Shown: one piece after another, positions 30,721 through 45,130 of the stretch
Numbering within the stretch: position 1 is the stretch's first letter
Layout: each line of letters begins with the position of its first letter
Source of the DNA: Kitasatospora cineracea
GTDB lineage: Bacteria > Actinomycetota > Actinomycetes > Streptomycetales > Streptomycetaceae
NCBI RefSeq assembly: GCF_003751605.1
Contig: NZ_RJVJ01000001.1
Coordinates: 5,208,001 to 5,272,000, forward strand
DNA length: 64,000 nt
Direction: 5' to 3'
Translations under genes and position numbers: made by a program
Notes under the pieces: generated by a model
Seen by the model: the letters and a program-made list of their open reading frames with translations, nothing else
The model's database searches: none
Told to the model about the DNA's origin: nothing

Positions 30721-30860
30721 TCCAGGCTGCGGCTTCCGCCACCCGGCTACGCTGGATCGCAATGCTCCGGCCGATACGAGGTCTTTACGGCGGCGGCGCG
30801 GTTCCTCCACGCTTGATCGAGCACCGCCTGACATGTGCCACCGGTCGTGAAGGGGGACGG

Positions 30861-32006
30861 ATGTCGAACGGAACCTCGAGGGAGTACTGGCACGCGCCCG
30901 CTCTGCCAAGCGTGTTCAAGCACGCGCTGCTCAGCCGCTACATACCCAAGTTCGGCGGAATGACGGGGTCGAAGAGCGGCCATGAGGTCGTCTACCTGGA
31001 TGGGTACGCGGGCGAGGGGCGGTACGAGAACGGTGATCCCGGGTCGGTCGATACGGTGCTGCGCATCGCGGCGGACCACCAGGCCAAGGGCTTGATCCGT
31101 TGGACCTGCTTCTTCGCCGAACGGTCGGCGTCCTCGTTCGCCCACCTGGAATCCCTCGTCGGTGAATACTGCGGCCGGGGCGTCGACGCTCGCGCCTTCC
31201 ACGGCGACGTCCTCACGTTGATGGACGACGTCCTGGCTGCCGCGGTCGGGCGGCCGTTGTTCCTCTTCCTTGACCCCTGCGGTCTGGGACTGCCGTTCGA
31301 CACCCTCGTGGACATCCTGGCCCGCCGCCGCAGGGAGACCTGGCCCCCGACCGAACTGCTGCTCAACTTCAGCATGATGGCGGTGCGCCGCATCGGCGGG
31401 AACTCCCGTTCCGACAAAGGCAACGAGCGAACCAGCAAGCGCCTGGACGAGGTCTGCGGCGGCCAGTGGTGGCGGGAGTATTTCGCCGCCGGCTACAGCC
31501 GGGACGCGGACGACGAGGTCGCAGCCGAGTACAGCCGACGCCTCGGGCAGGCCACGGGCATGCACACGGTCTCCGTCCCGGTCACCAAAGCCCCCGGCCA
31601 GAAGGCCGTCTACAACCTCGTCTTCGGAACCCGCAGCAACCACGGCCTGTGGGTCTTCGGCGACGCGCACTCCCGTGCCCGCGACACGTGGTGGGAAGGG
31701 CTGGAACTCCGAGAAGAGGACGACGGGCTGTTCTCCGTGGCGAGCATGCAGCGCCCAGACCCGAAGAAGATCCACGACCAGGCGATCCCCGTCATGGCCC
31801 ACAACATTGCCAGCCTGCTCCAGCAGGGCCGAGCCTTCAAACTCGTCGAGCACACGGCAGACGTCTTCGGAGAGTTCTACGGTCAGGTGCCCGAGACGGT
31901 GGCCCGCAAAGCGGTCAAGCACCTGAGAACGGCGGGTGGGACACCGAGCGACGGCACCGGCTCACCGATCCACAACCTGCAGGTACTTCCCCCGCTCAGA
32001 CCGTGA
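30861..32006 (+). CDS. tcmP: Three-Cys-motif partner protein (TcmP-like)
   Basis: A 381-residue protein resembling TcmP, the partner of three-Cys-motif (phage Gp37/Gp68, DUF5131) proteins. Recognisable parts are the N-terminal KHALLSRYIPKF, the DGYAGEGRYENGDPGS loop (a methyltransferase-like glycine loop), and LFLFLDPCGLGLPFDTLV, with ELLLNFSMMAVRR after it. The DUF5131 gene lies convergent to it with an 11-bp overlap of the 3' ends, which supports the assignment. The biochemical role is not established. The ATG at 30861 has AGGGGG 4 nt upstream. It could act with its partner in nucleic-acid modification or phage-related functions; that is inference. Confidence 0.8.
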   Translation: MSNGTSREYWHAPALPSVFKHALLSRYIPKFGGMTGSKSGHEVVYLDGYAGEGRYENGDPGSVDTVLRIAADHQAKGLIRWTCFFAERSASSFAHLESLVGEYCGRGVDARAFHGDVLTLMDDVLAAAVGRPLFLFLDPCGLGLPFDTLVDILARRRRETWPPTELLLNFSMMAVRRIGGNSRSDKGNERTSKRLDEVCGGQWWREYFAAGYSRDADDEVAAEYSRRLGQATGMHTVSVPVTKAPGQKAVYNLVFGTRSNHGLWVFGDAHSRARDTWWEGLELREEDDGLFSVASMQRPDPKKIHDQAIPVMAHNIASLLQQGRAFKLVEHTADVFGEFYGQVPETVARKAVKHLRTAGGTPSDGTGSPIHNLQVLPPLRP

Positions 32007-32742
32007 GGGGCAGCGGCATCTGATCCCACGTCCGACCCTCCAGCAGCCGACCGCCGGCCTTGGGCGTGTGTCCACCCCACTGTTTGAAGAAGAACGCGAC
32101 CTCTTCCCGCAGACAGGCGTCGCGCACGTCCAAGGCCCACTCCTCCTCCATCGGCCGATGACCGGGCCCGGACTCCCCACCGACGATCACCCAGTCGATG
32201 CCCTCCAGGTCCAGGCCGTCGAGCGGGCCGAGCAGCGGCTCGCAGGACAGGAACCGCACAGCGGCGGGCACGGCACGCAGGTCGTCGACACGGTCCAGCT
32301 CTGCCGCGCTCTCCACGGAGACACCGACCCACACGTTCGGCGGCCAATCCAACCGATCAGCCACACGGCGAAGCCGACGGGCCCGCTTGGTCAGCACCTG
32401 ATAGGTGTGCTGCGGCGTATCGGCCATCACAGCGAAGACCCGACGCACGAAATCGAGCGGCACCTTCGCGTGGAACAGGTCCGACATCGAGTTGACGAAC
32501 ACCGTCCGCGGCGCCCGCCACCCGTACGGCACCGACAGCGCGTCCGGATGCAGCGTCAGACCGAATCCGGGCCCCGACGTCCGAGGATCGCCGTCCTCCT
32601 GGTACTTCGCCGCGCCCATCGCCTTGAGCCGCTTCGCCAGGGCCAGGGCGTAGCAGTTGTCGCAGCCGGCCGAGACGCGGTCGCACCCGGTGGTCGGGTT
32701 CCATGTCGCCTCCGTCCACTCGATGCTGCTGCGATCGCTCAC
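31996..32742 (-). CDS. DUF5131 / phage Gp37-Gp68 family three-Cys-motif protein
   Basis: A 248-residue protein with the family start IEWTEATWNPTTGCDRVSAG followed by CDNCYA. The three cysteines (20, 27, 30; C-x6-C-x2-C) could hold an iron-sulphur cluster as in radical-SAM-like enzymes. Other conserved pieces are VNSMSDLFHAKVP, THTYQ-like QHTYQVLTKRARRL, VWVGVSVES, FLSCEPLLGPL, WVIVGGESGPGHRPM and FFFKQWGG. The family occurs in phages, plasmids and genomic islands and is linked to TcmP proteins, one of which converges here. The GTG start at 32742 is preceded by GAGGAG. Function is unknown; an IS256-type element lies just upstream. Confidence 0.85.
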   Translation of the reverse strand: MSDRSSIEWTEATWNPTTGCDRVSAGCDNCYALALAKRLKAMGAAKYQEDGDPRTSGPGFGLTLHPDALSVPYGWRAPRTVFVNSMSDLFHAKVPLDFVRRVFAVMADTPQHTYQVLTKRARRLRRVADRLDWPPNVWVGVSVESAAELDRVDDLRAVPAAVRFLSCEPLLGPLDGLDLEGIDWVIVGGESGPGHRPMEEEWALDVRDACLREEVAFFFKQWGGHTPKAGGRLLEGRTWDQMPLPLTV

Positions 32743-32879
32743 TGCTCACTCCTCGCCCCAGACCCTCGCCCCGCGGCACCGGCCGCACGGCACTGCCTAC
32801 CATCCTCTGCCAACAGCGCGATGTCGAACCGGTCGACAACAGCAACAGAACCTGCCCAACTGGAGAGAAAGCATGCTCC

Positions 32880-34265
32880 GGGTGTGTCCAGTGACTGGTG
32901 TATCTGATGTTGTGTGAGTTACCGGCGGCCGATGGAGAGTCGGCCGTCGAAGGCGATGTCGAACGCCTGGAGGGCGGGCTTCCATCGCATGGTCCAGCGT
33001 TTGCGGCCCCGGCCGGTGGGGTCGAGGCTCATGACGGCCATGTAAACGCACTTCAGCGCCGCTTGCTCGTTCGGGAAGTGCCCGCGGGCCCGGACGGCCT
33101 TGCGAATACGGGCGTTGACCGACTCGATCGCGTTCGTCGTGCAGACGACGCGACGGATCTCGACAACGAACTGCAGGAAGGGCACGAACTCGGCCCAGGC
33201 GTTCTCCCACAGCCGCACGATCGCCGGATACTTCCTCCCCCATGCCTCCTGGAACTCCAGGAACCGCTCCTCGGCGGCGTCCTGGGTCGGGGGGGGGGTG
33301 GAGACGGGCTTGAGCGCCTTCGAGATCTTGTCCCAGTCCTGGCGGGCCGCGTAGCGGAACGAGGCGCGCATCAGGTGGACGACGCAGGTCTGCGTGATCG
33401 CCTGCGGCCGGACCGTGCCGATGGCGTCGGGCAGCCCCTTCAAGCCGTCGCAGACGACCATGCACACGTCCTCGACGCCGCGGTTCTTGATCTCGGCGAG
33501 GACCTGGAGCCAGTACTTGGCGCCCTCACCGCCGTCGCCGGCCCACAGGCCCAGGATGTCGCGGGCGCCGTCGACGGTGACCGCGAGAGCGACGTAGACC
33601 GGCCGGTTGGCGACCTGCCCGTCGCGGACCTTCACATGGATGCAGTCAATGAACACGACCGGGTAGACCGGGTCGAGGGGACGGTTCTGCCACTCGGCCA
33701 TTCCGTCCACGACCTTGTCGGTAATGGTGGAGATCGTCGACTTGGACACGCTCGCGCCGTAGACCTCGGCCAGGTGGGCAGAGATGTCACCGTGCGTCAG
33801 ACCCCTTGCGGACAGGGACAGCACCATCTCATCCACGCCGGCCAGCCGCCGCCGGCGCTTCTTGACGAGCTGCGGCTCGAAGGAGCCCTGACGGTCGCGC
33901 GGCACCGCGATCTCGACCGGCCCGACATCGGTCAGCACGGTCTTCGAACAGATCCCGTTGCGGGAGTTCCCGCTGCCGGCCCCGACCTTGTCGTGCTTCT
34001 CGTAGCCGAGGTGGTCGGTGATCTCGCCCTCCAGAGCGGACTCCAGCACGCGCTTGGTCAGCTGCTGCAGCAGCCCGCCCTCGCCGGTCAGCCGGATCCC
34101 GCCTGCGTGGGCCCGGTCGACCAGCTGCCCGATCAACTGCTCGTCCAACAGGTCCGCCGCCATCTCAACCGGCCGAACCTCCTCAACCGCCTCAACCGAG
34201 GCAGTCACGTCGCTCATCAGGTGCTCTTCCTTGATCAGGAGATGCACCGGTCACCGTACAGACCC
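32880..34265. mobile_element. IS256-family insertion sequence
   Basis: The ends form imperfect 26-bp inverted repeats (32880-32905 and 34240-34265; 21 of 26 match), starting GGGTGTGT on one side and GGGTCTGT on the other. They enclose a single full-length IS256-type transposase gene. The length of 1386 bp is normal. No clear flanking duplication was found, so the insertion may be old or rearranged. It lies immediately upstream of the DUF5131 gene. Confidence 0.8.
32919..34217 (-). CDS. IS256-family (mutator-type) transposase
   Basis: A 432-residue DDE transposase. The start is the ATG at 34217 (MSDVTASVEAVEEV), preceded by GGAAGAG; an upstream start is possible. Family landmarks are ALEGEITDHLGYEKHD, GNSRNG, DKVVDGMAEWQNRPLDPVYPVVFIDCIHVKV (first Asp), VCDGLKGLPDAI (second Asp) and RVVCTTNAIESVNARIRKAV (Glu). 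The frame is intact despite a run of ten G on the plus strand at 33289-33298. It should catalyse movement of the surrounding element. Confidence 0.92.
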   Translation of the reverse strand: MSDVTASVEAVEEVRPVEMAADLLDEQLIGQLVDRAHAGGIRLTGEGGLLQQLTKRVLESALEGEITDHLGYEKHDKVGAGSGNSRNGICSKTVLTDVGPVEIAVPRDRQGSFEPQLVKKRRRRLAGVDEMVLSLSARGLTHGDISAHLAEVYGASVSKSTISTITDKVVDGMAEWQNRPLDPVYPVVFIDCIHVKVRDGQVANRPVYVALAVTVDGARDILGLWAGDGGEGAKYWLQVLAEIKNRGVEDVCMVVCDGLKGLPDAIGTVRPQAITQTCVVHLMRASFRYAARQDWDKISKALKPVSTPPPTQDAAEERFLEFQEAWGRKYPAIVRLWENAWAEFVPFLQFVVEIRRVVCTTNAIESVNARIRKAVRARGHFPNEQAALKCVYMAVMSLDPTGRGRKRWTMRWKPALQAFDIAFDGRLSIGRR

Positions 34266-34325
34266 TCTTCTAGCGTGCGGAGTTGCGCCGGAGCGCTCAG
34301 GCTCGGTCGGTGCTTTCCCGTCAGG

Positions 34326-35384
34326 TCAGGTCTGGATGGGCCGTTCGTCGAAGGCGAGTTCCCGAAAGGCGTTGCGGATGCCGGTGAGGGGCTGCCGGTC
34401 GCGGGTGTAGTAGAGCTTGTTGGTGAGCAGTACGGCCCAGGTTTCCCGGCTGGGGGAGATCCACATGCCGGTGCCGGTGAAGCCGTAGTGGACCCAGGTG
34501 TCGTCGGCGGGGTCGGTGCCCGGGGCGGGGTGCCAGAACAGGCCGCGTGCGGGTGTCAGTTCGCCGGTGTGGACGGTCAGGGACTCCTTGACCCAGGTGG
34601 GGCCGAAGCCGGCCTGTCCGGTGGGGGAGGGGGTGAGCAGGTGGCGGAGGAACCGGGCGAGGTCGTCGGCGGTGGAGAAGACGCCGGCGATTCCGCAGAC
34701 GCCGTTCAGGAGGCGGGCGGAGAAGTCGTGGGCGGTGCCGCGGAGGTGGCGGCCGGTCTCCTCGTCGAATTCGGTGGGGGCGCTCAGGGCGGCCCGGTCG
34801 GCGGGTAGCGGGCCGAAGCGGGTGGAGTCCATGCCGAGGGGCTGCCAGATCCGTTCGGCGGCGAGTCGGTCGAGGGGGTGGCCGGAGAGGTGTTCGGCGA
34901 GGTAGCCGAGGACGAGGGCGGCGCGGTCGGTGTAGTCGACGGCTTCGCCCGGGCGACGGTGGAGGGCTTCGTGGAGGACGCCTTCGCGGACGGCGGCCGG
35001 GTCGGTGCCGTAGAGGTTCTTGAGTTGGGCCCGCAGCGGGAGGCCGGCGGTGTGGGCGAGCAGGTTCCGTGCGGTGGCCCGGCCGAGGGGGTGCCCGGTT
35101 ACCTCGGGCCAGAAGGCGCCGAGCGGTTCGTCGAGGGGGAGGAGGCCGTCCTCCCAGAGCGTGCCAGCGGTGGACCAGACGGCGAGGATCTTGGTGAGGC
35201 TGGCGACGTCGAAGACGGTGTCCGGCAGCATCGGGGTGTCCGGGCAGGCGGGGTCGAGGACGCCGACGGCGCCGCCCACTTGGAATCCGGCCGCGTTGCC
35301 GACGGCCCATACGGCGCCGGGGTAGGCCCGGTCGCGGACACCGTCGGCCAGGAGCTGCTGGATGCGGTCGGTGCTGGGTGTCAT
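34326..35384 (-). CDS. Serine hydrolase, beta-lactamase/DD-peptidase-like
   Basis: A 352-residue member of the class C beta-lactamase/esterase family. The nucleophile motif is SLTK (FDVASLTKILAVW, about residues 59-71), the second motif is YTD (VDYTDRAALVLGYL), and HYGFTGTGMWISP supplies the third. There is no signal peptide, so it is probably cytoplasmic and more likely an esterase or peptide/amide hydrolase than a drug-resistance enzyme. It lies just downstream (85 bp) of the MurA-like operon in the opposite reading order along the minus strand: it starts upstream of the IS element and after the glycosyltransferase stop. Its link to that operon is uncertain. Confidence 0.85.
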   Translation of the reverse strand: MTPSTDRIQQLLADGVRDRAYPGAVWAVGNAAGFQVGGAVGVLDPACPDTPMLPDTVFDVASLTKILAVWSTAGTLWEDGLLPLDEPLGAFWPEVTGHPLGRATARNLLAHTAGLPLRAQLKNLYGTDPAAVREGVLHEALHRRPGEAVDYTDRAALVLGYLAEHLSGHPLDRLAAERIWQPLGMDSTRFGPLPADRAALSAPTEFDEETGRHLRGTAHDFSARLLNGVCGIAGVFSTADDLARFLRHLLTPSPTGQAGFGPTWVKESLTVHTGELTPARGLFWHPAPGTDPADDTWVHYGFTGTGMWISPSRETWAVLLTNKLYYTRDRQPLTGIRNAFRELAFDERPIQT

Positions 35385-35469
35385 CGTCTCCCCGATTCGC
35401 TGTGGACGTCCCGCTCCGGCCAGCGTAGTGAGCGGGCCGGAGCGGAACGGGTTGCGGCGTGACGCGGCG

Positions 35470-36582
35470 TCAGCCGAGTCGGCGGCCGAGTTCGGCCAGG
35501 GCGGTGGCGGTGGTGCTGAGCGGGTGGCGGGCCGCGTTGGCCCGGCCCGCGTCGCGTAGTTCGGTGAGGAGGGTGCGGGCGGTCCGCAGCCGGCCCAGGG
35601 TGCGGGCGACGGCGGCGGGATCGGTGAAGTCGACGGCCAGCGCGGAGGCCCCGAGGGCCTCCACCAGTCCGGGGACGGGTTGGTAGAGGACGGGCAGGCC
35701 GCAGGCCTGGGCCTCGAGCGCGACCAGGCCCATGGCCTCCAGAGTGGTGGAGGGTACGGCGAGCGCGTCGTGCTCGGTGAAGGCCTGCCAGAGCTGCGGA
35801 CGGGGCAGCCAGCCGAGGTAGCGGGCGTCGACGCCCGCCTGCTGGAGCACGGGGCGGAACGCGCCGAACTCCGCGGCCGGTGCGGCGATGCTCAGCTCGA
35901 TCCCGGGGAGGGCGGCCAGTGCCTGGGCGAGGACGACGCCGCCCTTCTCCGGGGTGAGCCGTCCGGCGTACAGCAGCCGCAGGCGCTCGGCCGGGGCCGC
36001 CCCGAACGGTGCGGGCGGGTGGCGTAGGAGACGGTCGGGGACGCCCCACGGGATGTGGTGGATCTTGCGCGGATCGGTGTGGGGTGCGAGGCGGAGCAGG
36101 TGGTCGGCCATGGCGGGGGTGGGGGCCACGACGGCGTCGGCGAGGCGCGCGCTCTCGCGCAGGACCTGCAGTTGGTCGCGGTGCTGCTCGGCGAACAGCA
36201 GGTCGGTGCCGTGGATCAGCGCGATCCGGGGACGGTCGGGCAGGGCCCGGAGCAGCGCGGGGGTGGCACCGAATGCGAGGTGTTGCAGGTGCAGCACCTC
36301 GACCGGCTCCGCGGCCAGGGCGTGGGCGAGGGCTCGGGAGAGGGCGGCCACGTACCGGTGGAAGGTGGGCCCCTGGAGGGTCTTGCCGGTGACGGTGAGC
36401 AGGCCGAGCCCGGCCGGAAGCACGGGTGCTGGGCCGGACGGCCGGAGCATGAAGGCCCGGGCGGGGATCAGCGGGTCGGGGCCGGTGTAGAAGTCGTGGA
36501 AGAGTTCGACGCTGCCGCCGGGGCTGTCGGCGGGCAGGTCGAGGCAGGTGGCGACCAGCGGCCGGGGCATGGGGGTGGTCAT
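35470..36582 (-). CDS. GT4-family glycosyltransferase
   Basis: A 370-residue GT-B fold retaining glycosyltransferase. The C-terminal nucleotide-sugar domain shows LLYAGRLTPEKGGVVLAQAL and the donor-binding EAMGLVALEAQACGLPVL with its E-x7-E pattern. The N-terminal acceptor domain has an LIHGTDLLF segment. No signal or membrane segment is evident, so it is cytoplasmic. Its ATG overlaps the stop of the Dcd-like gene (ATGA). It is the last gene of a five-gene coupled operon and may add a sugar to a nucleotide- or enolpyruvyl-derived small molecule; acceptor and donor are unknown. Confidence 0.85.
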   Translation of the reverse strand: MTTPMPRPLVATCLDLPADSPGGSVELFHDFYTGPDPLIPARAFMLRPSGPAPVLPAGLGLLTVTGKTLQGPTFHRYVAALSRALAHALAAEPVEVLHLQHLAFGATPALLRALPDRPRIALIHGTDLLFAEQHRDQLQVLRESARLADAVVAPTPAMADHLLRLAPHTDPRKIHHIPWGVPDRLLRHPPAPFGAAPAERLRLLYAGRLTPEKGGVVLAQALAALPGIELSIAAPAAEFGAFRPVLQQAGVDARYLGWLPRPQLWQAFTEHDALAVPSTTLEAMGLVALEAQACGLPVLYQPVPGLVEALGASALAVDFTDPAAVARTLGRLRTARTLLTELRDAGRANAARHPLSTTATALAELGRRLG

Positions 36583-37115
36583 CGGGGGCCTCCGGGGATC
36601 TCCTCGTAGAGACGGGAGGTGTCGATGCCGTCGGTACCGGTGTACTTGAGGCCGAGCTGCTGGTAGCTGGCGGGGGCGCCGAAGGTCTGGAGGAAGACGA
36701 CCTTCCCGAACGTCATGCCGGCGTGGACCCGGACGGGGCGGACGGCGCGGATCTCCAGGGTCCAGCGGATCGCGTGGCCGGCGTGCCCGAGCGGAGCGGA
36801 GACGTGGACCCAGATGCCGAGCGATCCGACGGTGCGGTCGCCGTTGAGCATCTGCGCGTACCGCTCGGAGCCGGTGCGCTCCAGCGTCACCCCGAGGTAG
36901 AGCACGCCCGGATCGAGGACCACGCCCTCGGGCGGGATGGTGAGTTCCGTGGAGGAGGTGGGCGCGGCGGCGTCCAGGTCGCCGTCGCACACCCGCAGCG
37001 TCTCGCCCAGGCGCCAGTCGTAGGCGTTGGGGGACAGCCGGGCCGGGTCGAACGGCTCGATGGCGATCTCGCCCGCTGCGACGGCGGCGGCGATCGCGGG
37101 GCCGGTGAGGATCAT
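36579..37115 (-). CDS. Dcd-like protein, second paralogue (keeps Glu, lacks SS/R)
   Basis: A 178-residue dUTPase/dCTP-deaminase fold protein. The N-terminus MILTGPAIAAAV and the C-terminal GMTFGKVVFL and LGLKYTGTDG align with dCTP deaminase. The Ser-Ser-x-x-Arg segment is changed: it reads GDRTVGSLG (residues 92-100), so the first Ser is Arg94, the second Thr95, and the arginine is Ser98. The catalytic-type Glu is kept as Glu121 in WTLEIRAV. The paralogue directly upstream has the reciprocal pattern. Starts overlap as TGATG upstream and ATGA downstream. It may form a mixed oligomer with its partner, may bind nucleotides without deaminating them, or may have a new activity. Confidence 0.8.
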   Translation of the reverse strand: MILTGPAIAAAVAAGEIAIEPFDPARLSPNAYDWRLGETLRVCDGDLDAAAPTSSTELTIPPEGVVLDPGVLYLGVTLERTGSERYAQMLNGDRTVGSLGIWVHVSAPLGHAGHAIRWTLEIRAVRPVRVHAGMTFGKVVFLQTFGAPASYQQLGLKYTGTDGIDTSRLYEEIPGGPR

Positions 37116-37651
37116 CAGGCCGCCGCCCCGGCACCGGGCAGGTCGCGCCAGTAGGCAGAGGGCTGCGGGCCCTGTGCGGCCTGGTACTTGCCGCGGTAGA
37201 GGTCGACGGCGCCGACGGAGAGGAAGAACATGATCTGGCCGATCTTCATGCCCTCGTAGACCCGTAGCGGGCGGGTGGCGGAGAGCATCAGGGTCCACTG
37301 CCCGTGGAAGCCGATGTCGCCGATCGGCGCGGTGATCTCGACGAACAGGCCGAGCCTGCCCACCGACGAGCGGCCGAACAGCAGCGGGACGAACGTGTCG
37401 GAGCCGACCTCCTCCACGGTGTGCCCGAGGTAGAGCTCGCCGGGCTCCAGGACGAATCCGCCCGCACCGATCTCGAACTCCCTGGTGGGGTTGGGGCGGT
37501 GGGCGTCGATGACGGTGCCGGTGTAGACCCGCAGCGTCCTGCCGAGGCTGACGTTGTAGCTGTTGGGGTTGACCTGGTCGGCCTCGAACGGGGAGATGCG
37601 CATCCGGCCGTCGCCGGTGGCGGTGGTGATCTCCGGTCCGGTGAGGATCAT
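37115..37651 (-). CDS. Dcd-like protein, first paralogue (keeps SS/R, lacks Glu)
   Basis: A 178-residue dCTP-deaminase-fold protein. It keeps GRSSVGRLG (residues 93-101), with Ser95, Ser96 and Arg99 matching residues important in Dcd, and it keeps YEGMKIGQIMFF and YRGKYQAAQGP. The catalytic glutamate of the T-L-E-L segment is replaced by Met122 (WTLMLSAT). Classical Dcd converts dCTP to dUTP; without this Glu that reaction is doubtful for the protein alone. It overlaps the phosphatase gene upstream (ATGA) and its paralogue downstream (TGATG). The housekeeping dcd gene is expected elsewhere in the genome. Confidence 0.82.
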   Translation of the reverse strand: MILTGPEITTATGDGRMRISPFEADQVNPNSYNVSLGRTLRVYTGTVIDAHRPNPTREFEIGAGGFVLEPGELYLGHTVEEVGSDTFVPLLFGRSSVGRLGLFVEITAPIGDIGFHGQWTLMLSATRPLRVYEGMKIGQIMFFLSVGAVDLYRGKYQAAQGPQPSAYWRDLPGAGAAA

Positions 37652-38880
37652 GAGACGGCTCCTTCGTCGAATGGGGTGTCAGTGAGGGTGTGTCGGACGG
37701 CCAGCCCGAGCGGGTGGCCGAGCCGGTGTGCGGGCCCGGCCGGGAAACCCTCGGCCAGGTAGTCGGTGGTGAGTACGGCGCGCACCCCGGGCGGCAGCGG
37801 GTCGGGGACGGTCACCAGTGGCCCGGCCCGCTCGGCGAGCACGGGAAGCAGAGCGGGCAGGTCCGGATCGGCGTCTTCGGGGAGGGGAACGTGGACGAGT
37901 CGGTTGCCGCACGGTTCGACGGACAGCAGGTCGGCCAGGCACAGTTCGTCGCCGAGTGGGGTCTCCCGCAGCACGGTCTCGTTGAGGATCACGGCCTCCG
38001 CACCGAGTTCGGTGCGCAGCCGGACCGCGATGGCTTCCAGCAGTTCGCGCCGATCGGGCACCACGTTCCGCCAGCGGTCGGCGAGCCGCCCGAGCGGGAT
38101 GGCGAGTTCGGCTGCGAGCGCCTCGATCTGCTCGCCGATCGGCTCCAACTCGGCAGGGAGTGGAGCTGATTGGGGAAAGCAGCCGGTGCGGGCGGCCCAG
38201 CCGACACCGGCGGGTTCGGCGAGGGCGTACCCGGCGCCGAGTTCGGCGCCCTTGACGATCAGGGTGGTGCCGACCTGCTCGGGACCGTAGCGGTCGCTGT
38301 GGCAGTGCCCGGCGAAGACGACGTCCAGGAACGGGCACTCGTCGACCAACCGAAGGTCGTGCTCGAATCCGGAGTGGGACAGCACTACCCAGGAGTCCAC
38401 CTCGTGGTGGTGGGCGATCAGCAGGTCGCGCAGGGCCCGGACCGGGTCTGTGGCGCGTTGGCCGACACGATCGCCCAGTGGGATAGCGGAGAACGCCTGC
38501 TCGCCGATGACCGCAGTGACCGCCACTCTCCGGCCGCCGACCTCGGCCTTCTGCAGCGGACGGAACAGCAGTTCACCGGTCTCCGAGTCGACAGCGTTCG
38601 CGCAGACCGTCAACTCGCGCAGGCCTGGCTCGAAGTGATGGCTCCAGCCGTGGTTGCCCGGTGCGATCACGTCGAACAGCGATAGTAGGACGCGCCGCTC
38701 GACACGGCCTTGGCCGAGGCGGTAGATGCCGGTGCCCTCGAAGAAGTCGCCGCAGTCCACCACCAGGGCGCCCTCGCGGGCGGCGTGCAGGTGGGCCAGC
38801 ATCCCGGTCGACCCGGCGAGGGAGGAGTGGATGTCGGTGGTGGCGATGATCTGCCGCAGCGTCCGCGTCGGCGGGGTCAT
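37648..38880 (-). CDS. Metallophosphatase / 5'-nucleotidase-like
   Basis: A 410-residue calcineurin-like phosphoesterase with a UshA/CpdB-type layout but no signal peptide. Metal-binding motifs are in order: TTDIHSSLAG (D-x-H), VVDCGDFFEG (GD), APGNHGWSHHF (GNH), VVLSHSGFEHD (H) and VFAGHCHSDRYG (GHxH). The C-terminal region (about residues 270-400) corresponds to a 5'-nucleotidase C domain. It may dephosphorylate a nucleotide intermediate made by the MurA-like and Dcd-like neighbours. The ATG at 38880 overlaps the MurA-like stop (ATGA). Cytoplasmic location is unusual for the UshA group. Confidence 0.85.
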   Translation of the reverse strand: MTPPTRTLRQIIATTDIHSSLAGSTGMLAHLHAAREGALVVDCGDFFEGTGIYRLGQGRVERRVLLSLFDVIAPGNHGWSHHFEPGLRELTVCANAVDSETGELLFRPLQKAEVGGRRVAVTAVIGEQAFSAIPLGDRVGQRATDPVRALRDLLIAHHHEVDSWVVLSHSGFEHDLRLVDECPFLDVVFAGHCHSDRYGPEQVGTTLIVKGAELGAGYALAEPAGVGWAARTGCFPQSAPLPAELEPIGEQIEALAAELAIPLGRLADRWRNVVPDRRELLEAIAVRLRTELGAEAVILNETVLRETPLGDELCLADLLSVEPCGNRLVHVPLPEDADPDLPALLPVLAERAGPLVTVPDPLPPGVRAVLTTDYLAEGFPAGPAHRLGHPLGLAVRHTLTDTPFDEGAVS

Positions 38881-40190
38881 CGGGTGGCCTCGGTGATGTC
38901 GGCCCCCAGCGCGCGGAGTTTTCCGGGCAGATCGGCGTGGCCGCGTCGGAGCTGGTCGAGACCGCTGACGGTCGTGGTGCCGCGTGCGGTCAGGCCGGCG
39001 ATCAGCAGCGCAGTGCCGGTGCGGATGTCGGTGGCCCGGACAGCGGTGCCGGTGAGCCGCTGGGGTCCGGTCAGGTGGCATTCGGTCGAGGAGATCTCTT
39101 CGAACTCGGCCCCGAGTGCGCGCAGTTGGGAGAGCAGGTTGTGGTGTCGGCCGGGGTTGACTGCGTCGGCGAACCGGTGGGTGCCGGGCAGACCGAGGGC
39201 GAGGGCGAGCAGGGCGGGTTCGAAGTCGGCGTCCAGGCCGTCCGGGTCGAGCGAGGCTACGGCGGACAGCGGCTTGCCGCTCGGGGTGCCGCCACCGGGC
39301 AGAACCAGGGCCTCGGGTTCAGCTATGGCGGGGATGCCGAGACGGTTGAGCGCCCGGACGACAGGGGCGGTGTCCAGGCCGTGCACGCCTTCGATCCGGC
39401 CGCTGCCGCCGGTCGCGGCGATCGCGCAGGCCAGCGTTCCGGCTTCGATCTTGTCGCCGGGTACCGTCCAGCTCAGGTCCGCACCGCTGGTGACGGACGG
39501 AGGTTCGAGGACGAGGCGGTTCTCGCCGAGGTCCGCTCGCCATCCGCCCTGCCGCAGGAAGTCCAGTACGCCGGTGAACTCCGGTGACAGGTTGGGGCTG
39601 CCCAGGAGCAGCCGCCGATCGCCCGCCACGGCGCGCAGCACCGCGACGACGCTGGCCCCGCGGGAGCGGAACGGCAGCTCGATCGCCACCTGCCCGGCGC
39701 GGCCGGCGGCGGTGGCGACTCGGTAGCCGGCGTCGCCGGTCTCGACCTCGTCGCCGAACGCCTCGTAGACCTTGAAGTGCAGGTCCATGCCCCGCTCACC
39801 GATCCGGCAGCCCCCGGGCCAGGGCAACTGGGCCTGGCCGTAGGTGGCCAGCAGGGAGGGCACCAGGTAGTAGGAAGCGCGGATCCGGGCGGCCTCGGTG
39901 AGATGGGACAGCCGGGTGCGGTCCTCGACGGGAGCGAGGGCGACCGCCCGGGGAGCGGAGACAGGGCGGGTCAGGCAGTTGCCCGCGCGCTGGAGCAGCG
40001 TCAGCATCAGCTGGACGTCCGTGCTGTCGGGCACGTTGTCCAGGGTGACCGGGCGGCGGACCGCCGCGGCGGCGGCCAGCAACGGCAGGGCGGCGTTCTT
40101 CGAGCCGTCCACCCGCACGGCGCCGGCCAGCGGGCGGCCGGGGCGGACGGTGATGGACGGACCGGCCTCGGTGATGGAGATGGGCGTCAT
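38877..40190 (-). CDS. MurA-like enolpyruvyl transferase
   Basis: A 437-residue EPSP-synthase/MurA fold protein. It keeps the substrate-binding GSKNAALP near residue 30, the MurA-type cysteine in PWPGGCRIGERGMDLH (the Cys that reacts with phosphoenolpyruvate), and VPGDKIEAGTLACAIAATGG with the conserved Asp and Glu. MurA proper adds enolpyruvyl to UDP-GlcNAc for peptidoglycan. Here the gene heads an operon with a nucleotidase and Dcd-like proteins, and not cell-wall genes, so the acceptor may be another nucleotide, as in nikkomycin/polyoxin-type pathways; that is inference. The ATG at 40190 follows GGAGGA at 5 nt. A divergent XRE regulator lies across a 307-bp gap. Confidence 0.85.
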   Translation of the reverse strand: MTPISITEAGPSITVRPGRPLAGAVRVDGSKNAALPLLAAAAAVRRPVTLDNVPDSTDVQLMLTLLQRAGNCLTRPVSAPRAVALAPVEDRTRLSHLTEAARIRASYYLVPSLLATYGQAQLPWPGGCRIGERGMDLHFKVYEAFGDEVETGDAGYRVATAAGRAGQVAIELPFRSRGASVVAVLRAVAGDRRLLLGSPNLSPEFTGVLDFLRQGGWRADLGENRLVLEPPSVTSGADLSWTVPGDKIEAGTLACAIAATGGSGRIEGVHGLDTAPVVRALNRLGIPAIAEPEALVLPGGGTPSGKPLSAVASLDPDGLDADFEPALLALALGLPGTHRFADAVNPGRHHNLLSQLRALGAEFEEISSTECHLTGPQRLTGTAVRATDIRTGTALLIAGLTARGTTTVSGLDQLRRGHADLPGKLRALGADITEATR

Positions 40191-40497
40191 GGAATCCTCC
40201 ACGGCAGTGGGCGGAACGGACGGGCGAGGGGGGAACGAGTCGGCCGGGCGAACCGGACCGTGGAGCCTCGTACCGGTCGGACGGAATGCGTCAGCGGCCG
40301 CCGCACGTCGGTCCGCGACGGTGGCCGGGCCTCCCGGGCCCGCCCCCGGCGGTCGAGCGCACGTTCGCCGCTCGATCGGGGAGAGCTCAATCCGACACCC
40401 GATCAGGTGGTCGTGGCAGGGCAGATTAGGTGGGTGAATTACGGCTGCCGAGTAGGCTGAATCCCCTTCCTACTCGCTCAGTTGGGGGATCGGACAG
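40191..40497. other. 307-bp divergent promoter region, MurA-like operon / XRE regulator
   Basis: The region lies between divergent starts and should contain both promoters. GGAGGA for the MurA-like gene and GGGGGAT for the XRE gene are visible at the two edges. A short inverted repeat, GTAGG...CCTAC (40452-40472), lies 26 bp before the XRE start. No confident -35/-10 pair and no gene were found. Confidence 0.45.
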
Positions 40498-41691
40498 ATG
40501 GAGAACCGGGCCTTGCGGCAGGCCAGGGAGGCAGCGGGCTGGACTCAGCAGGATGTGGCCGACCGTGTCCAGGACTGGCTCCTGGAACGTGACTTCGATC
40601 CCGGGAGCTTTGACGCCAGTACGGTCAGCCGCCTTGAATGCGGTCGCATCAGGTGGCCACGGGACGAGACGCGGACGGCACTGCGTGCGGTGTTCGGGGT
40701 CGACACCGATGCGGAACTCGGCCTGCACGGCAGGCGGAGGCCGCGGACCGCGAAGCCCGAGGTGAGTACGACGAGACGCCGAACCTTCCTGTCGATCGGC
40801 GCAGCCGCCGTGCTGCCCGACAGCGCGATCGCACCGACCCGACTCGGCGCCGACGATGTGCGCGAACTCCGGTACCACGTCGAAGCCCTGGCCGACTGGG
40901 ACCGCCGCTCCGGGGGCCGTTCCACCCGCCACTTCGCCGGCCTGGAACTGCAGCGCGCGATCGGCCTCGGCACGGCGTCGATGAACCCGGCCGTCCGCAC
41001 CAGCTGGAGCACCGAGGTGGCCCGGTTGGCCGGCCTGTACGCATGGACCACCTTCGACGCCGGGGCGAACGGCGCCGGGCCCGTCTTCGACCTGGCCCTC
41101 GAAGCAGCACGGGAGGCGAACGACTCCTCCGCCTACTGCCGCATCGCCACGAACGCCGCCCGCCAGGCCGTCCACGCGGCCGACGCCGACCGGGCACTGG
41201 CCCTCACCGCTTCCGTCCCCGGTGCTCACCCGCCCGCGGTTCGGGCGATGATCGCCGCCGTCACCGCGCAGGGCCTCGCACTCCGCGGTGACGTCCGGAG
41301 CGTGATGCGGGCCGTCGACGAGGCCGAAGCCCACGCGTCCCGCGCCGATGCTGCCGAAGAAGGCGAAGGGTGGATGCAGACCCTGACCCCGGGCAAACTC
41401 CGCTCCGACCTCGGCTACGCCCTGTACCGGTTGTCCGCGACCACCGGCCATCTCGTTCCCGATCTGGTGCCGCAACTGCGTCGCGCCGCCGGGGTATCCG
41501 CGACGGCCCAGCCTCGGGCGAAGGCGATGGGTGCAGCCCGGCTGGCCACCGTCCTGGTCCGCCAAGGGGAGCTGGACGAGGCCCGGCACCATGCGGCGGT
41601 CGCCGTCGAACTCGCTGCGGTCGTGCAGTCGGCGCGCCTCGACACGGCCGTCGCCGAGATGCGGGCAGCGGGTTGCGGAGAACCGTTCTGA
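40498..41691 (+). CDS. XRE-family HTH regulator with TPR-like C-terminal region
   Basis: A 397-residue regulator. The N-terminal helix-turn-helix (ALRQAREAAGWTQQDVADRV, then ASTVSRLECGR; residues 5-50) is unusual in having an extra charged insertion (QDWLLERDFDPGSF). An Arg-rich linker follows, and then an all-helical Ala-rich region of about 280 residues with TPR-like repeats (for example LDEARHHAAVAVELAAVVQ). Such proteins often sense small molecules or peptides in streptomycetes. It diverges from the MurA-like operon and may control it. The ligand is unknown. Confidence 0.82.
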   Translation: MENRALRQAREAAGWTQQDVADRVQDWLLERDFDPGSFDASTVSRLECGRIRWPRDETRTALRAVFGVDTDAELGLHGRRRPRTAKPEVSTTRRRTFLSIGAAAVLPDSAIAPTRLGADDVRELRYHVEALADWDRRSGGRSTRHFAGLELQRAIGLGTASMNPAVRTSWSTEVARLAGLYAWTTFDAGANGAGPVFDLALEAAREANDSSAYCRIATNAARQAVHAADADRALALTASVPGAHPPAVRAMIAAVTAQGLALRGDVRSVMRAVDEAEAHASRADAAEEGEGWMQTLTPGKLRSDLGYALYRLSATTGHLVPDLVPQLRRAAGVSATAQPRAKAMGAARLATVLVRQGELDEARHHAAVAVELAAVVQSARLDTAVAEMRAAGCGEPF

Positions 41692-41771: not shown

Positions 41772-43550
41772 ATGACCGAGAACGACGGACTGTCGGCTGC
41801 GGAAGCGGCTAGAGCCGCTGTCACCCGCGACGAGCTGGTGGCGGCTCACGGCGCGCTCTGGTGGCTGGAATCCGATCCGGACCAGGGCGGAGGGAAACGG
41901 CTGGTCCGATCCGAACCGTCCGGCCGGGCCGTCCCGGTCACTCCTTCCGCACTGCCGGTGGGTGGTTCGCTGCACGCCTACGGGGGCGGGAACTTCGCCG
42001 TCGCCGAAGACGCGGTGTGGTTCGTCGGCCCGGGGGACGGGGTCTTCTTCCAGCCCGTCGACGGCGATCCGGTCGTGCTGGAAAAAGGGAACGGCTGGGC
42101 CTACGGGGACCTCTCGCTGAGCCCGGACGGGAGGCTGCTCGCGGTCCGCGGCAACGACGGCACGGACGAGATCGTCGCCATCGCTCCGGACGGACAGGTG
42201 GAGGTGCTCGTCGGCTCCCCCGACTTCCTGGGCCACCCCCGTGTCGCGGGAGGCCGCTTGGCCTTCCTGGAGTGGGACCGGCACCGGATGCCTTGGGACG
42301 GTACCCGGCTGGTTGTCACGGGCATCGGTGACAGCCCGTCAGCTGCGTGCCGGATCGCGGGCGGGCCCGCCGAATCCGTGGTCCAGCCCGTTTGGGGCCC
42401 CGACGGCGAGCTGTACTTCCTGTCGGACCGCACCGGGTGGTGGAACCTCTACCGCCACCGCGCCGCGGGCGCCGTCGAAGCAGTGGCCCCGATCGAAGCC
42501 GACTGCGCTCCGGCCCCGTGGGAGGGCGGCTACCGGTCGTACGCGCTCTCCCCGGCCGGCGACACCGTCCTGACCGCGACGGACGGCATCACCACCGAGT
42601 TGCTCGTGGTGGACGGCGCAGGGCAGGTGTCGCGGATCGGGGCGAACCTCAGCTCCGTGAAGCCGTACGTGGCGCTCCTGGATGATGCGGTCGCCGTGAT
42701 CGGATCGACTCCGACGAGTGCACCGGCGATCTGGACGGCTGATCTCGACAGCCGGTCCGGCGCGGTGGCCCTTCCGGCTTCCGCCGCGGAGCCGCTCACC
42801 GGACCTCGGTCCGGGCCGCCGCCCGTGGTGCGGTCCGTCCCCGGGGCCGACGGGCAGGTGCGCTACCTGCTCCACCTGCCCGAGGCCGACGGCCCGGTAC
42901 CGGTGCTCGTCCGCGCGCACCCCGGACCGACCGACGGGGTGCCCCTGCGGTTGGACTGGTCGGTGCAGTACTTCGTCAGCCACGGCTTCGCGGTCGCGGA
43001 ACCGCTCTACCGCGGGAGCACCGGCCGGGGCCGGGCCTTCCGGCAGCAACTGGACGGCCGGTGGGGCGAACTCGACGTGGACGACTGCGCCGCCGTGGCC
43101 GAGCACCTCGTCGCCCAGGGCGTGGCCCGCCCCGACGCCCTCTTCCTCAGCGGTGCCAGCGCCGGCGGGTACACCACGCTCCAAGCCGCTTGCCGGCCGG
43201 GCCCGTTCGCCGCGGCGACCGCGATCTCGGCGATCATCGACCCGGCCCGGTGGGAGCAGTCGGTACCGGCGTGGCAGCGCCCGCACGCGGTGGCCCTCCG
43301 CGGCCCGGCCGGTGCTGTCCGGCCGGAGCGGATCCGCTGCCCCGTCCTGGTGATCCACGGTTCGAAGGACACCATCACGTCCGGAGAGGATGCCATGGAG
43401 TTCGGCCGCGCCCTCGCCGCCCGCGGGGCGGGCGAGGTGCTGCTGCTGGACGGCGGCGACCACTACCTGTCCGACCCCCGGCACCGTGCGGCGGCGCTGG
43501 CCGCCGAACTCGGCTTCTACCGTACGGCGGTGCTCGGTCTCATCCGGTGA
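41772..43550 (+). CDS. Prolyl-oligopeptidase-family (S9) serine peptidase
   Basis: A 592-residue cytoplasmic hydrolase with an N-terminal beta-propeller (about residues 25-330; repeats such as YGDLSLSPDGRLLAVRG and VQPVWGPDGELYFLSDRTGWWNLY) and a C-terminal alpha/beta hydrolase. The triad is visible: Ser in FLSGASAGGYTTLQ, Asp in VIHGSKDTITSGE and His in LDGGDHYLSDP. It resembles the DPP4/acylaminoacyl-peptidase branch and should release short peptides or acyl amino acids. It is on the same strand as the XRE gene, 80 bp downstream, and its 3' end overlaps the next convergent regulator by 11 bp. Confidence 0.88.
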   Translation: MTENDGLSAAEAARAAVTRDELVAAHGALWWLESDPDQGGGKRLVRSEPSGRAVPVTPSALPVGGSLHAYGGGNFAVAEDAVWFVGPGDGVFFQPVDGDPVVLEKGNGWAYGDLSLSPDGRLLAVRGNDGTDEIVAIAPDGQVEVLVGSPDFLGHPRVAGGRLAFLEWDRHRMPWDGTRLVVTGIGDSPSAACRIAGGPAESVVQPVWGPDGELYFLSDRTGWWNLYRHRAAGAVEAVAPIEADCAPAPWEGGYRSYALSPAGDTVLTATDGITTELLVVDGAGQVSRIGANLSSVKPYVALLDDAVAVIGSTPTSAPAIWTADLDSRSGAVALPASAAEPLTGPRSGPPPVVRSVPGADGQVRYLLHLPEADGPVPVLVRAHPGPTDGVPLRLDWSVQYFVSHGFAVAEPLYRGSTGRGRAFRQQLDGRWGELDVDDCAAVAEHLVAQGVARPDALFLSGASAGGYTTLQAACRPGPFAAATAISAIIDPARWEQSVPAWQRPHAVALRGPAGAVRPERIRCPVLVIHGSKDTITSGEDAMEFGRALAARGAGEVLLLDGGDHYLSDPRHRAAALAAELGFYRTAVLGLIR

Positions 43551-44784
43551 CGGCGGCCGGCAAAACCGCCCTCGTGAACTCCTGCAGCTCCCGCACGGGG
43601 GCGTACCCGCTGTGCGGGCCGAGCGCGCCGAGGACCGCACCGACCCGTTCGACGCACCGGCCCGACCCGGTGCGCGCGGCGTACTCGACGGCCTCGGTGC
43701 CTACCGCACACGCCTGGTCCAACTCGCCGGAAGCGATCCAGGTGGAAGCGAGCAGGGCCGCGTCGATCGCACGCCGACGCACCCGGTCGGTGCCCACTCC
43801 GCCGAGCGCGTCGACCAGTTGTCCCCGGGCGGTCGGCGGCCTGCCGAGGTCGTGGAAGCAGTGGGCCGCCTCGTCCGCGAGGTAGGCGTGGGTGAAGTAG
43901 CCGATCCACGGCGGTTCGTCCGAGCCTCCTTCGTCGAGCAGCCGCTCCGCCTCCAGGAGCAGCCTGGTCGCCTCGTCTTCCCGCTGGAGACGCGCGTTGG
44001 CCCTGGCCACCACCGCCGTGATCGCCGCCCTGGTGGCAGGGCTCGCGGCCGTCCCGGCAGCGGCCAGGGCGGCCGATGCCCAGCGCAGCGCCAACTCGGC
44101 CTCGCCGCAGTGCAACGCGAGGTGCCCGAGGTTGACGGCCGTCAGGTACGCACCGTAGGCGTGGTCGCCGGTGGCGACGGTCAGGTTCAGCGCGCGTTGG
44201 TAGTACGCCTGCGCTTGCTGGGGGCGGCCGTTGTCCACGGCCTGGTAGCCCGCCAGCTCGCAGGCTTCGGCGGTCAGCATGGCCCGCTGGTGCGCGATCG
44301 AGGGACTGGCTGCGGGGCGCTGCTGGAGGTCGTTGAGCTGACGTTCGATGAAATCGGTGACCTGTCCGGCGCTCTGCCTGGCGCCGTAGGTGTGATCGAG
44401 CTGGCGGAACACGGCCAGCATCTGCCTCACCATCCCCAGATCCTCCTCCGTGACCCGCAGGGCCCGGCCAGGGGAGGGCCCACCGGTCGGTGACAGGCCG
44501 ATCCAGTCGTTGACCATGTCGTCGAGGTCATGCAACGACGACGGATTGGAAGACGGGCCGGGGCTTCGGCTGCTGTCGGCCGCCGAGTTGAGCAGAGCGT
44601 CCAACTTTTCGACGCTGATCTTCAACGCCGTTGCGACCCGGGGAAGTTGCCTGGGGTAGGGCGTGGCCTCGCCGCGTTCCCACCGGCCCCAGGTCCGGCG
44701 GTCGACCCCGGCTGCCCGAGCGGCATCGTCCTGGGAGTGGCCGACCGCCCTGCGGCGCATCGCCAGCGGCGACGAGTCGTTCAT
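43540..44784 (-). CDS. XRE-family HTH regulator with TPR repeats
   Basis: A 414-residue regulator. The start is the ATG at 44784 (MNDSSPLAMRRRAVGHSQDD); the frame is open further upstream, but that region holds direct repeats that look regulatory. The HTH is at residues 9-40 (SQDDAARAAGVDRRTWGRWERG). The remainder is a TPR-like array, including QQAQAYYQRALNLTVATGDH and GEAELALRWASAALAAAG. The 3' end overlaps the convergent S9 peptidase by 11 bp. It diverges from the ten-gene array starting at 45131 and may regulate it, with a signal-binding TPR domain. Confidence 0.85.
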   Translation of the reverse strand: MNDSSPLAMRRRAVGHSQDDAARAAGVDRRTWGRWERGEATPYPRQLPRVATALKISVEKLDALLNSAADSSRSPGPSSNPSSLHDLDDMVNDWIGLSPTGGPSPGRALRVTEEDLGMVRQMLAVFRQLDHTYGARQSAGQVTDFIERQLNDLQQRPAASPSIAHQRAMLTAEACELAGYQAVDNGRPQQAQAYYQRALNLTVATGDHAYGAYLTAVNLGHLALHCGEAELALRWASAALAAAGTAASPATRAAITAVVARANARLQREDEATRLLLEAERLLDEGGSDEPPWIGYFTHAYLADEAAHCFHDLGRPPTARGQLVDALGGVGTDRVRRRAIDAALLASTWIASGELDQACAVGTEAVEYAARTGSGRCVERVGAVLGALGPHSGYAPVRELQEFTRAVLPAAVTG

Positions 44785-45130
44785 CGGCAACCCCCACTTC
44801 GATGCCCGGAGAAACCGCAGCTCAAAGCCGCGATGTCCCAAGGCTGTCCCACGGATGTCCCCAAGTCTGACCTGTTCAGCTCCAGTTCGTGCCTGATTCT
44901 CTGTACTCACACCCGATCCGGTTCGTTCGGGAGAGTGGCGCGACTCGGTCGGCGTGCGGACGAACACCGACAGGCAGAGGCGCTGGTGCGGCTCTCCGAT
45001 GTCGAAGCGGGTCCCTGTATGTCATGTTCAGATCAAAAAGCTGCTGCGCTACCGGCCATGTGGCAGATACCACGGCCGTTGCTACGGCTGCCGGGGCCGC
45101 ACCGACGGACCACGAAGGAGGAAGCAGGTC
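44785..45130. other. 346-bp divergent promoter region upstream of the ten-gene array
   Basis: No gene is evident. Three direct TGTCCC repeats at exact 11-bp spacing lie at 44834-44861. A relatively AT-rich stretch (45025-45050) may hold the rightward promoter, but no convincing -35/-10 pair was recognised. AAGGAGG at 45115-45121 is the ribosome-binding site of the first gene. Confidence 0.5.
44834..44862. promoter_or_regulatory. Three 7-bp direct repeats with 11-bp period
   Basis: TGTCCCA, TGTCCCA and TGTCCCC start at 44834, 44845 and 44856, each separated by 4 bp. Heptamers repeated once per helical turn are the known pattern of SARP-type activator sites. No SARP gene lies in the window, so the binding protein could instead be the XRE/TPR regulator encoded next to it. 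Confidence 0.5.

Follow-up and report, generated by a model that had tools for sequence, protein, structure and literature searches.

The window analysed here, a 64,000-nucleotide stretch of the 8.76-Mb genome of Kitasatospora cineracea (contig C1), carries on its minus strand, at positions 34326-40190, a six-gene unit, MUR-NUC-Dcd1-Dcd2-GT-BLA, whose open reading frames (ORFs) and junctions were read directly in the window. The first gene (38877-40190) codes for MUR, a MurA-like enolpyruvyl transferase paralogue of 437 amino acids (aa; PF00275). It is followed by genes coding for NUC, a 410-aa 5'-nucleotidase or UshA-type metallophosphatase (37648-38880, PF00149); Dcd1 and Dcd2, two 178-aa proteins of the dCTP-deaminase/dUTPase fold (37115-37651, PF22769 and TIGR02274, and 36579-37115, PF22769, respectively); GT, a 370-aa GT4 glycosyltransferase (35470-36582, with PF00534 among its family matches); and BLA, a 352-aa serine hydrolase of the beta-lactamase/S12 fold (34326-35384, PF00144).

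Genes overlap at all four junctions from MUR to GT, as a sequence-only reading of this DNA had claimed, three times by ATGA (MUR/NUC, NUC/Dcd1 and Dcd2/GT) and once by TGATG (Dcd1/Dcd2). That reading described a five-gene operon; the five ORFs and their coupled junctions exist, but the unit comprises six genes, since BLA starts only 85 bp beyond the end of GT and accompanies the other five in most related loci (see below). A ribosome-binding-like GGAGG lies immediately 5' of the MUR ATG, and the 307-bp divergent intergenic region (40191-40497) between MUR and a gene coding for an NsdA-family regulator is the expected promoter site; neither a sigma-70-consensus promoter nor a T-run terminator was detected in 34100-40600.

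Conservation of the operon and identity of its enzymes

In a protein search with MUR (E<=1e-70), 25 of the 297 genomes available for the family to which the window belongs gave a match, a patchy presence typical of specialised metabolism, and a scan of genome contigs yielded 44 loci, including some from Kribbella catacumbae and Microtetraspora glauca. Counting the window, we obtained 70 loci, reduced to 62 distinct ones by merging on MUR sequence across both collections; these come mainly from Streptomyces, with Kribbella and Microtetraspora also present. All six genes occur in a single order and on a single strand in 56 of the 62 distinct loci. Four of the six incomplete loci (L060, L068, L074 and L087) run into contig ends and two (L089 and L100) consist of MUR alone. 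The coupling recurs as well: among distinct loci the spacing is -4 in 58 of 60 for MUR/NUC, -4 in 45 and -1 in 9 of 58 for NUC/Dcd1, -4 in 53 and -1 in 3 of 58 for Dcd1/Dcd2, and -4 in 58 of 58 for Dcd2/GT, while the gap before BLA is mostly 80-111 bp. A small number of copies (L035, L044 and L058) show damage; L035, with a 967-bp gap between NUC and Dcd1, and L044, with truncated genes, were scored by tblastn as having the genes. A complete six-gene copy resides on a 209-kb plasmid of Streptomyces sp. NBC_00161, and plasmids of NBC_01456 (L175, 5720-7123; BLA at 66% with a 43-aa GT remnant upstream) and NBC_01321 (L178, 6002-6583; a BLA fragment) carry apparent remnants of the operon. A class-wide MUR search (matches in 4 of 394) revealed no further cluster type, and phage records gave 42 matches to MUR, every one below 60% identity. 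The six genes very probably constitute a dedicated metabolite operon.

MUR matches PF00275 with 110 bits (cut-off 22.8) and the TIGR01072 murA equivalog with 222.4 bits, under the cut-off of 392.7. As previously proposed, it keeps the reactive Cys (Cys128, in PWPGGC); the motif PWPGGC.IG.RG is found in 66 of the 70 MUR sequences, and Lys31-Asn32, Cys128, Asp322, Arg348, Arg390 and Arg416 are unchanged across 18 aligned orthologues. We assume that the roles of these residues in catalysis and at the phosphoenolpyruvate (PEP) site are those of their MurA counterparts. There are five PF00275 places in the host genome: L001 and L002, which we read as AroA, the housekeeping MurA (L003), a helix-turn-helix-MurA fusion (L004) and MUR itself. 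In L004 (C3:73709-77953), the ORF at 1231-2796 joins an XRE-type helix-turn-helix to a second MurA-like protein, for a total of 521 aa. MUR shares 30% identity with the housekeeping MurA, and in a tree the 15 MUR rows lie on one side of a branch (support 98/95) with L003 and two MurA proteins from the PDB outside it, although long branches caution against trusting the deeper order. The sequence-only reading had named clustering with housekeeping MurA as an argument against itself, and no such clustering was found. Two loops also depart from MurA, namely RGM[D/E] (RPVD in MurA) and PFRSRGA/RSRG (PSVG in MurA); PFRSRGA occurs in 67 of 70 MUR sequences, and the altered acceptor loops are invariant in the 18 orthologues. 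We take these loops to correspond to those with which MurA contacts the uridine diphosphate or nucleotide, and their alteration would speak against unchanged use of uridine diphosphate N-acetylglucosamine (UDP-GlcNAc). MUR thus resembles housekeeping MurA in its domain, Lys-Asn pair, Cys loop, and Asp and Arg residues, and differs from it by its separate branch, its score under the murA cut-off, its acceptor loops and its coupling to nucleotide genes. Judged from its sequence, it is a dedicated paralogue and not the housekeeping enzyme.

The sequence-only reading also pointed to the NikO and PolA type of enzyme. Passages of PMC5365060 describe NikO and PolA as making enolpyruvyl-uridine monophosphate (enolpyruvyl-UMP) and PolJ as dephosphorylating 3'-enolpyruvyl-UMP, so that this octosyl acid pathway shares with the window a MurA-like enzyme and a phosphatase in a nucleoside context. 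A special link to these enzymes was not supported. Searched against the PDB, the MUR profile placed NikO (4fqd) last of 33 matches, with 132.3 bits against 160-218 bits for the MurA chains listed, all of which scored higher. Moreover, the Dcd pair, the GT4 enzyme and the serine hydrolase stand in place of the radical S-adenosylmethionine (SAM) enzyme of that pathway, and no radical SAM partner of the PolH/NikJ type was found among the window proteins scanned, including all six operon products. On these two grounds, the missing radical SAM gene and the weakest match, we do not regard an octosyl acid pathway of the NikO type as the closest system.

The best PDB match of NUC is the nucleotidase 3ivd (E 8.8e-17), and its metal motifs are nearly invariant (TTD.HS in 65 of 68 sequences; GDFFEG, PGNHG and LSHSG each in 67 of 68); NUC thus keeps the two-metal phosphatase motifs and is a predicted nucleotidase. 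GT belongs with the GT4 glycosyltransferases both by family match and by fold; the solved folds nearest to its model (predicted local distance difference test, pLDDT, 91.5) are GlgM, MshA, sucrose-phosphate synthase and BshA. BLA, an addition to what the sequence-only reading had described, matches PF00144 with 165 bits and retains ASLTK in 63 of 64 and H.G..GT in 64 of 64 orthologues. Its best NCBIfam match is PBP4B, and among proteins with solved structures it shows weak similarity to esterases, peptidases and beta-lactamases. A homologue of BLA (38%) also occurs on plasmid pFRL4 (L174, 6148-10389), in a row with genes coding for GlmU-like, MurA-like and MurB-like proteins and without Dcd; the reactive Cys of this MurA-like protein is replaced by Asp, and its identity is 34% to MUR and 31% to housekeeping MurA. 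The row may code for a muramyl-sugar pathway, with BLA as its link to the window operon.

Active-site residues divided between two Dcd-like proteins

In the numbering of Mycobacterium tuberculosis Dcd:Dut, we take Glu129 (Glu138 in Escherichia coli) to be the deaminase residue. Ser102, Asp119 and Gln148 are reported to be indispensable for dUTPase activity (PMC3360063), and passages of PMC4827122 describe the superfamily as trimers with active sites at intersubunit clefts. Both window proteins match PF22769 (Dcd1, 140 bits; Dcd2, 86.7 bits); against the TIGR02274 cut-off of 92.8 bits, Dcd1 scores above (98.2) and Dcd2 below (61.8). Dcd1 retains Ser95, Asp112 and Gln139 and has Met122 in place of the deaminase Glu; in M. 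tuberculosis numbering, Ser102, Arg106, Asp119 and Gln148 are present with Met at Glu129. Dcd2 retains Glu121 (Glu129) and has His111 for Asp119, Arg94 for Ser102, Ser at Arg106 and Lys138 for Gln148. Because of this partition, Dcd1 looks hydrolase-competent and deaminase-dead, and Dcd2 the reverse. The division, which the sequence-only reading had not described, sets the pair apart from M. tuberculosis Rv0321 Dcd:Dut (PDB 2qxx). Fold, length and motif layout are alike, and Dcd1 and Dcd2 jointly hold all the catalytic residues; the M. tuberculosis enzyme, however, is one polypeptide forming a homotrimer, whereas here two coupled paralogues are encoded, and in neither do Asp119 and Glu129 occur together. 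The host genome codes elsewhere for its own housekeeping Dcd, with all residues present and 74% identity to M. tuberculosis Dcd:Dut, and the pair is therefore not needed for dTTP supply.

The same partition was observed in every one of 85 tandem pairs, comprising 56 of the window type (type A), 4 of type A', 10 of type B, 4 of type C, 5 of type D, 4 of type E, and one each from L157 and L164. Members were labelled a (Dcd2-like) or b (Dcd1-like) by BLAST similarity, independently of the diagnostic residues. Type A rows are 56 distinct loci with chains of 161-199 aa, excluding L044, L058, L089, L100, L074 and L087; also outside the count are G165 (L147, holding only a C-terminal piece of Dcd2, GT and BLA), G026 (a short partial match) and a type C plasmid (L176), and the overlapping pieces L148-L155 of four type E genomes contribute one pair per genome. 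All 85 a partners keep Glu129 and have Asp119 changed (His in 72, Asn in 9, Gln in 4), while all 85 b partners keep Asp119, Ser102, Arg106 and Gln148 and have Glu129 changed (Met in 61, Gln in 24). Not one of the 170 chains carries both the deaminase Glu and the superfamily Asp, whereas the single-gene relatives 2qxx, 4xjc and Paenibacillus L111 carry both. All 64 a partners of types A, A' and E have lost Ser102, Arg106 and Gln148 and would therefore need another subunit for phosphate binding; the remaining 21 a partners retain the three residues. Dcd1 and Dcd2 probably form a heteromer, as the partition suggests, and we think it likely that they act together as a split dCTP deaminase/dUTPase (DCD/DUT). 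In L058 (12513-13157), a deletion between dcd1 and dcd2 leaves the remainder out of frame, and the other genes look intact; this locus was ruled out as a natural Dcd1/Dcd2 chimera for testing the composite site because the fusion is out of frame.

In a tree of 71 rows, a and b partners fall on opposite sides of one branch (Shimodaira-Hasegawa-like approximate likelihood ratio test, SH-aLRT, 91), and the split stays when the diagnostic and C-terminal columns are removed (87/75, and 84% of 200 bootstraps). The pair thus appears to descend from one old duplication. Distances among the a partners track those among the b partners (r 0.88 over 34 pairs, a value reached by 0 of 2000 permutations); co-inheritance by itself may account for this.

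Matches to Dcd2 were found in 45 of the 297 family genomes (E<=1e-20), and a plasmid search also gave tandem pairs; a phylum-wide search (matches in 3 of 396) revealed no new cluster type, and one locus from broader searches (G891, L173), with no labelled Dcd gene on its map, was left uncounted. Altogether six or more cluster types contain the tandem pair, and non-ribosomal peptide synthetase (NRPS), ATP-grasp or tRNA-synthetase-like genes are present in several of them. Type A' (4 loci) combines Dcd1-Dcd2-GT, at 75-76%, 71-72% and 52-56% identity, respectively, with ATP-grasp, argininosuccinate-synthase-like, ROK kinase, HIT, MFS and NRPS A-PCP genes. Type B (10 loci) holds a kinase, the pair and mostly a cytidine-deaminase-like gene, often with methyltransferase, sugar-nucleotide enzyme, radical SAM, GT4 and HAD genes. 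Type C (4 loci and plasmid L176) brings together an rRNA-methylase-like gene, a NUC homologue (32-37% identity), TauD, the pair, PIG-L, WbqC, a GT homologue (33-36%), and tRNA-synthetase-like and MurG-like genes. In type D (5 loci), a P450, the pair, a class II synthetase-like gene, a methyltransferase and a kinase are accompanied by a divergent class I lysyl-tRNA synthetase (LysRS). In L165 and L170-L172 this LysRS gene is divergent from the cluster holding the class II synthetase-like gene, and it is a possible self-resistance gene. Type E (4 genomes) has a Dcd fused to a pyruvate-phosphate-dikinase-type domain, HAD, phosphodiesterase and kinase genes and a distant second Dcd; the fusion (about 830 aa; L148-L155) is found with DUF6001 and DUF6031 proteins. 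The single loci L157 and L164 hold the pair with other neighbours.

Proposed pathway and alternative explanations

We favour, with somewhat better than even confidence, a reading in which the six genes form a self-contained operon and make a small specialised metabolite of the nucleoside type, a split DCD/DUT feeding MUR, NUC and GT. Dcd2, providing the deaminase Glu, and Dcd1, providing the hydrolase Ser, Asp and Gln, would together convert a pyrimidine nucleoside triphosphate to the monophosphate with its base deaminated. MUR would then transfer enolpyruvate from PEP onto a hydroxyl of the resulting nucleotide, NUC would remove the 5'-phosphate, GT would add a sugar from a nucleotide-sugar donor in the manner of MshA or BshA, and BLA would act on the product at an acyl, ester or amide group or have a protective role. 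An enolpyruvylated, glycosylated nucleoside would result; the product is probably a small sugar-nucleoside molecule, which may be secreted or bioactive. A pathway for a nucleotide-derived small molecule had already been suggested from the sequence alone, and the suggestion gains from the distinction of MUR from housekeeping MurA, the separate housekeeping Dcd and the recurrence of the pair in secondary-metabolism clusters. Mycothiol and bacillithiol pathways use a GT4 enzyme (MshA or BshA), a PIG-L deacetylase and an aminoacyl ligase. The GT fold is like theirs, and type C repeats the combination of GT4, PIG-L and tRNA-synthetase-like genes; unlike them, the window operon has neither deacetylase nor ligase, and the Dcd pair and nucleotidase would build the acceptor side.

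As the acceptor of MUR we tentatively choose, with slightly less than even confidence, a nucleotide produced by the Dcd pair, because type C has TauD where type A has MUR, and elsewhere other modifying genes fill this position. UDP-GlcNAc or another nucleoside diphosphate (NDP) sugar is a candidate to be held more loosely still. In that case MUR would make UDP-GlcNAc-enolpyruvate as the donor with which GT modifies a nucleoside or other acceptor from the Dcd pair and NUC, and BLA would act on a muramyl-like sugar. The nearness of the GT fold to the GlcNAc-transferring MshA and BshA, the PBP4B match of BLA, the co-occurrence in type C of a PIG-L GlcNAc deacetylase and a homologue of GT, and the pFRL4 row all fit such a route. 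We nevertheless consider it rather unlikely as a whole, given that the loops changed invariantly in MUR are those presumed to contact uridine diphosphate in MurA, that the six-gene unit lacks MurB and that the pFRL4 MurA-like protein is hardly nearer to MUR than to housekeeping MurA. If the Dcd proteins instead worked sequentially, as a homotrimeric deaminase (Dcd2) and a separate homotrimeric nucleotide diphosphatase (Dcd1), the remaining pathway would be unchanged. The partition fits two half-reactions of a bifunctional enzyme, but the a partners of types A, A' and E would then have no phosphate site of their own, and the parallel evolution of the partners, though co-inheritance could give the same, also argues against this arrangement, which we deem unlikely. 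A role of MUR in self-resistance or target duplication, as an extra MurA that would shield the cell from an inhibitor of enolpyruvyl transferases or of the cell wall, is very unlikely: MUR does keep the MurA active-site residues, yet among these is the Cys that we would expect to confer fosfomycin sensitivity, the acceptor loops are invariantly altered, and MUR comes first in its unit and is closely coupled, in nearly every locus, to genes for nucleotide enzymes. A phage-defence or nucleotide-depletion system, which the patchy and partly plasmid-borne distribution and the presumed occurrence of nucleotide deaminases in defence systems could suggest, is the least probable of all, since PADLOC models matched none of the six proteins, the sister clusters hold NRPS, aminoacyl-ligase-like and GT genes and not defence genes, and no relative of Dcd2 was confirmed on viral contigs.

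Several observations weigh against the nucleoside operon that we favour. The six-gene unit includes no transporter, resistance gene or tailoring oxidase, and the adjacency of the MurA-like gene and BLA homologue to MurB-like and GlmU-like genes on pFRL4 favours an NDP-sugar. The 85 pairs were collected by similarity to Dcd2 and, as a single duplication is probable, represent long conservation and not 85 independent events; the a/b split itself is moderately supported. Since a plain trimer allows no perfect alternation of two kinds of subunit, a Dcd heteromer would have unequal sites. Finally, the structure prediction for Dcd2 (pLDDT 48.8) is too poor to use.

More broadly, the chances seem to us evenly balanced that tandem Dcd-like pairs mark an unrecognised superfamily of actinobacterial biosynthetic gene clusters, in which an obligate heteromeric split DCD/DUT core would supply a shared nucleotide block, glycosylated and then decorated differently in each type, with enolpyruvate, with amino acids via NRPS, ATP-grasp or tRNA-synthetase-like ligases, or by methylation; type C would apply a mycothiol-like logic to a nucleoside. 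The protein families are already known; for the operon, the recurring pair and the residue partition, no matching report was found among the papers listed in searches of open-licence PMC text, a scope that excludes subscription journals and most preprints. If the proposal is correct, adjacent Dcd-like genes with divided Glu and Asp would be a simple signature for many nucleoside-type pathways that are still unexplored, although the antibiotic producers containing them are well studied. The pair would also show, in a clean natural example, how a bifunctional homotrimer can evolve into two paralogues that depend on each other. With six genes, the window-type operon is small enough for rebuilding in a streptomycete and in vitro.

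Regulators and other neighbours

The divergent neighbour of MUR (40498-41691, plus strand) codes for an XRE/TPR-like regulator of the NsdA family (NF053720, 181.5 bits, cut-off 75). The sequence-only reading had counted this regulator and an S9 peptidase as possible parts of the pathway. Both were rejected as members of the operon or pathway, since tblastn (E<=1e-8, flanks of about 9-10 kb where the contig allowed) detected them in none of the other 69 loci. Other XRE-type genes, which belong to two families, do lie within 1.5 kb upstream in 50 of the 62 distinct loci. A small upstream gene present in 38 of 62 is read as HATPase-like; the gene at the same place on the NBC_00161 plasmid is annotated as 'ATP-binding protein'. 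A second NsdA-family regulator is encoded near the first (43540-44793, minus strand; NF053720, 252.9 bits), and downstream of the operon, at 30762-34247, lie what we take by eye to be TcmP-like and DUF5131-like genes beside an IS256-type transposase.

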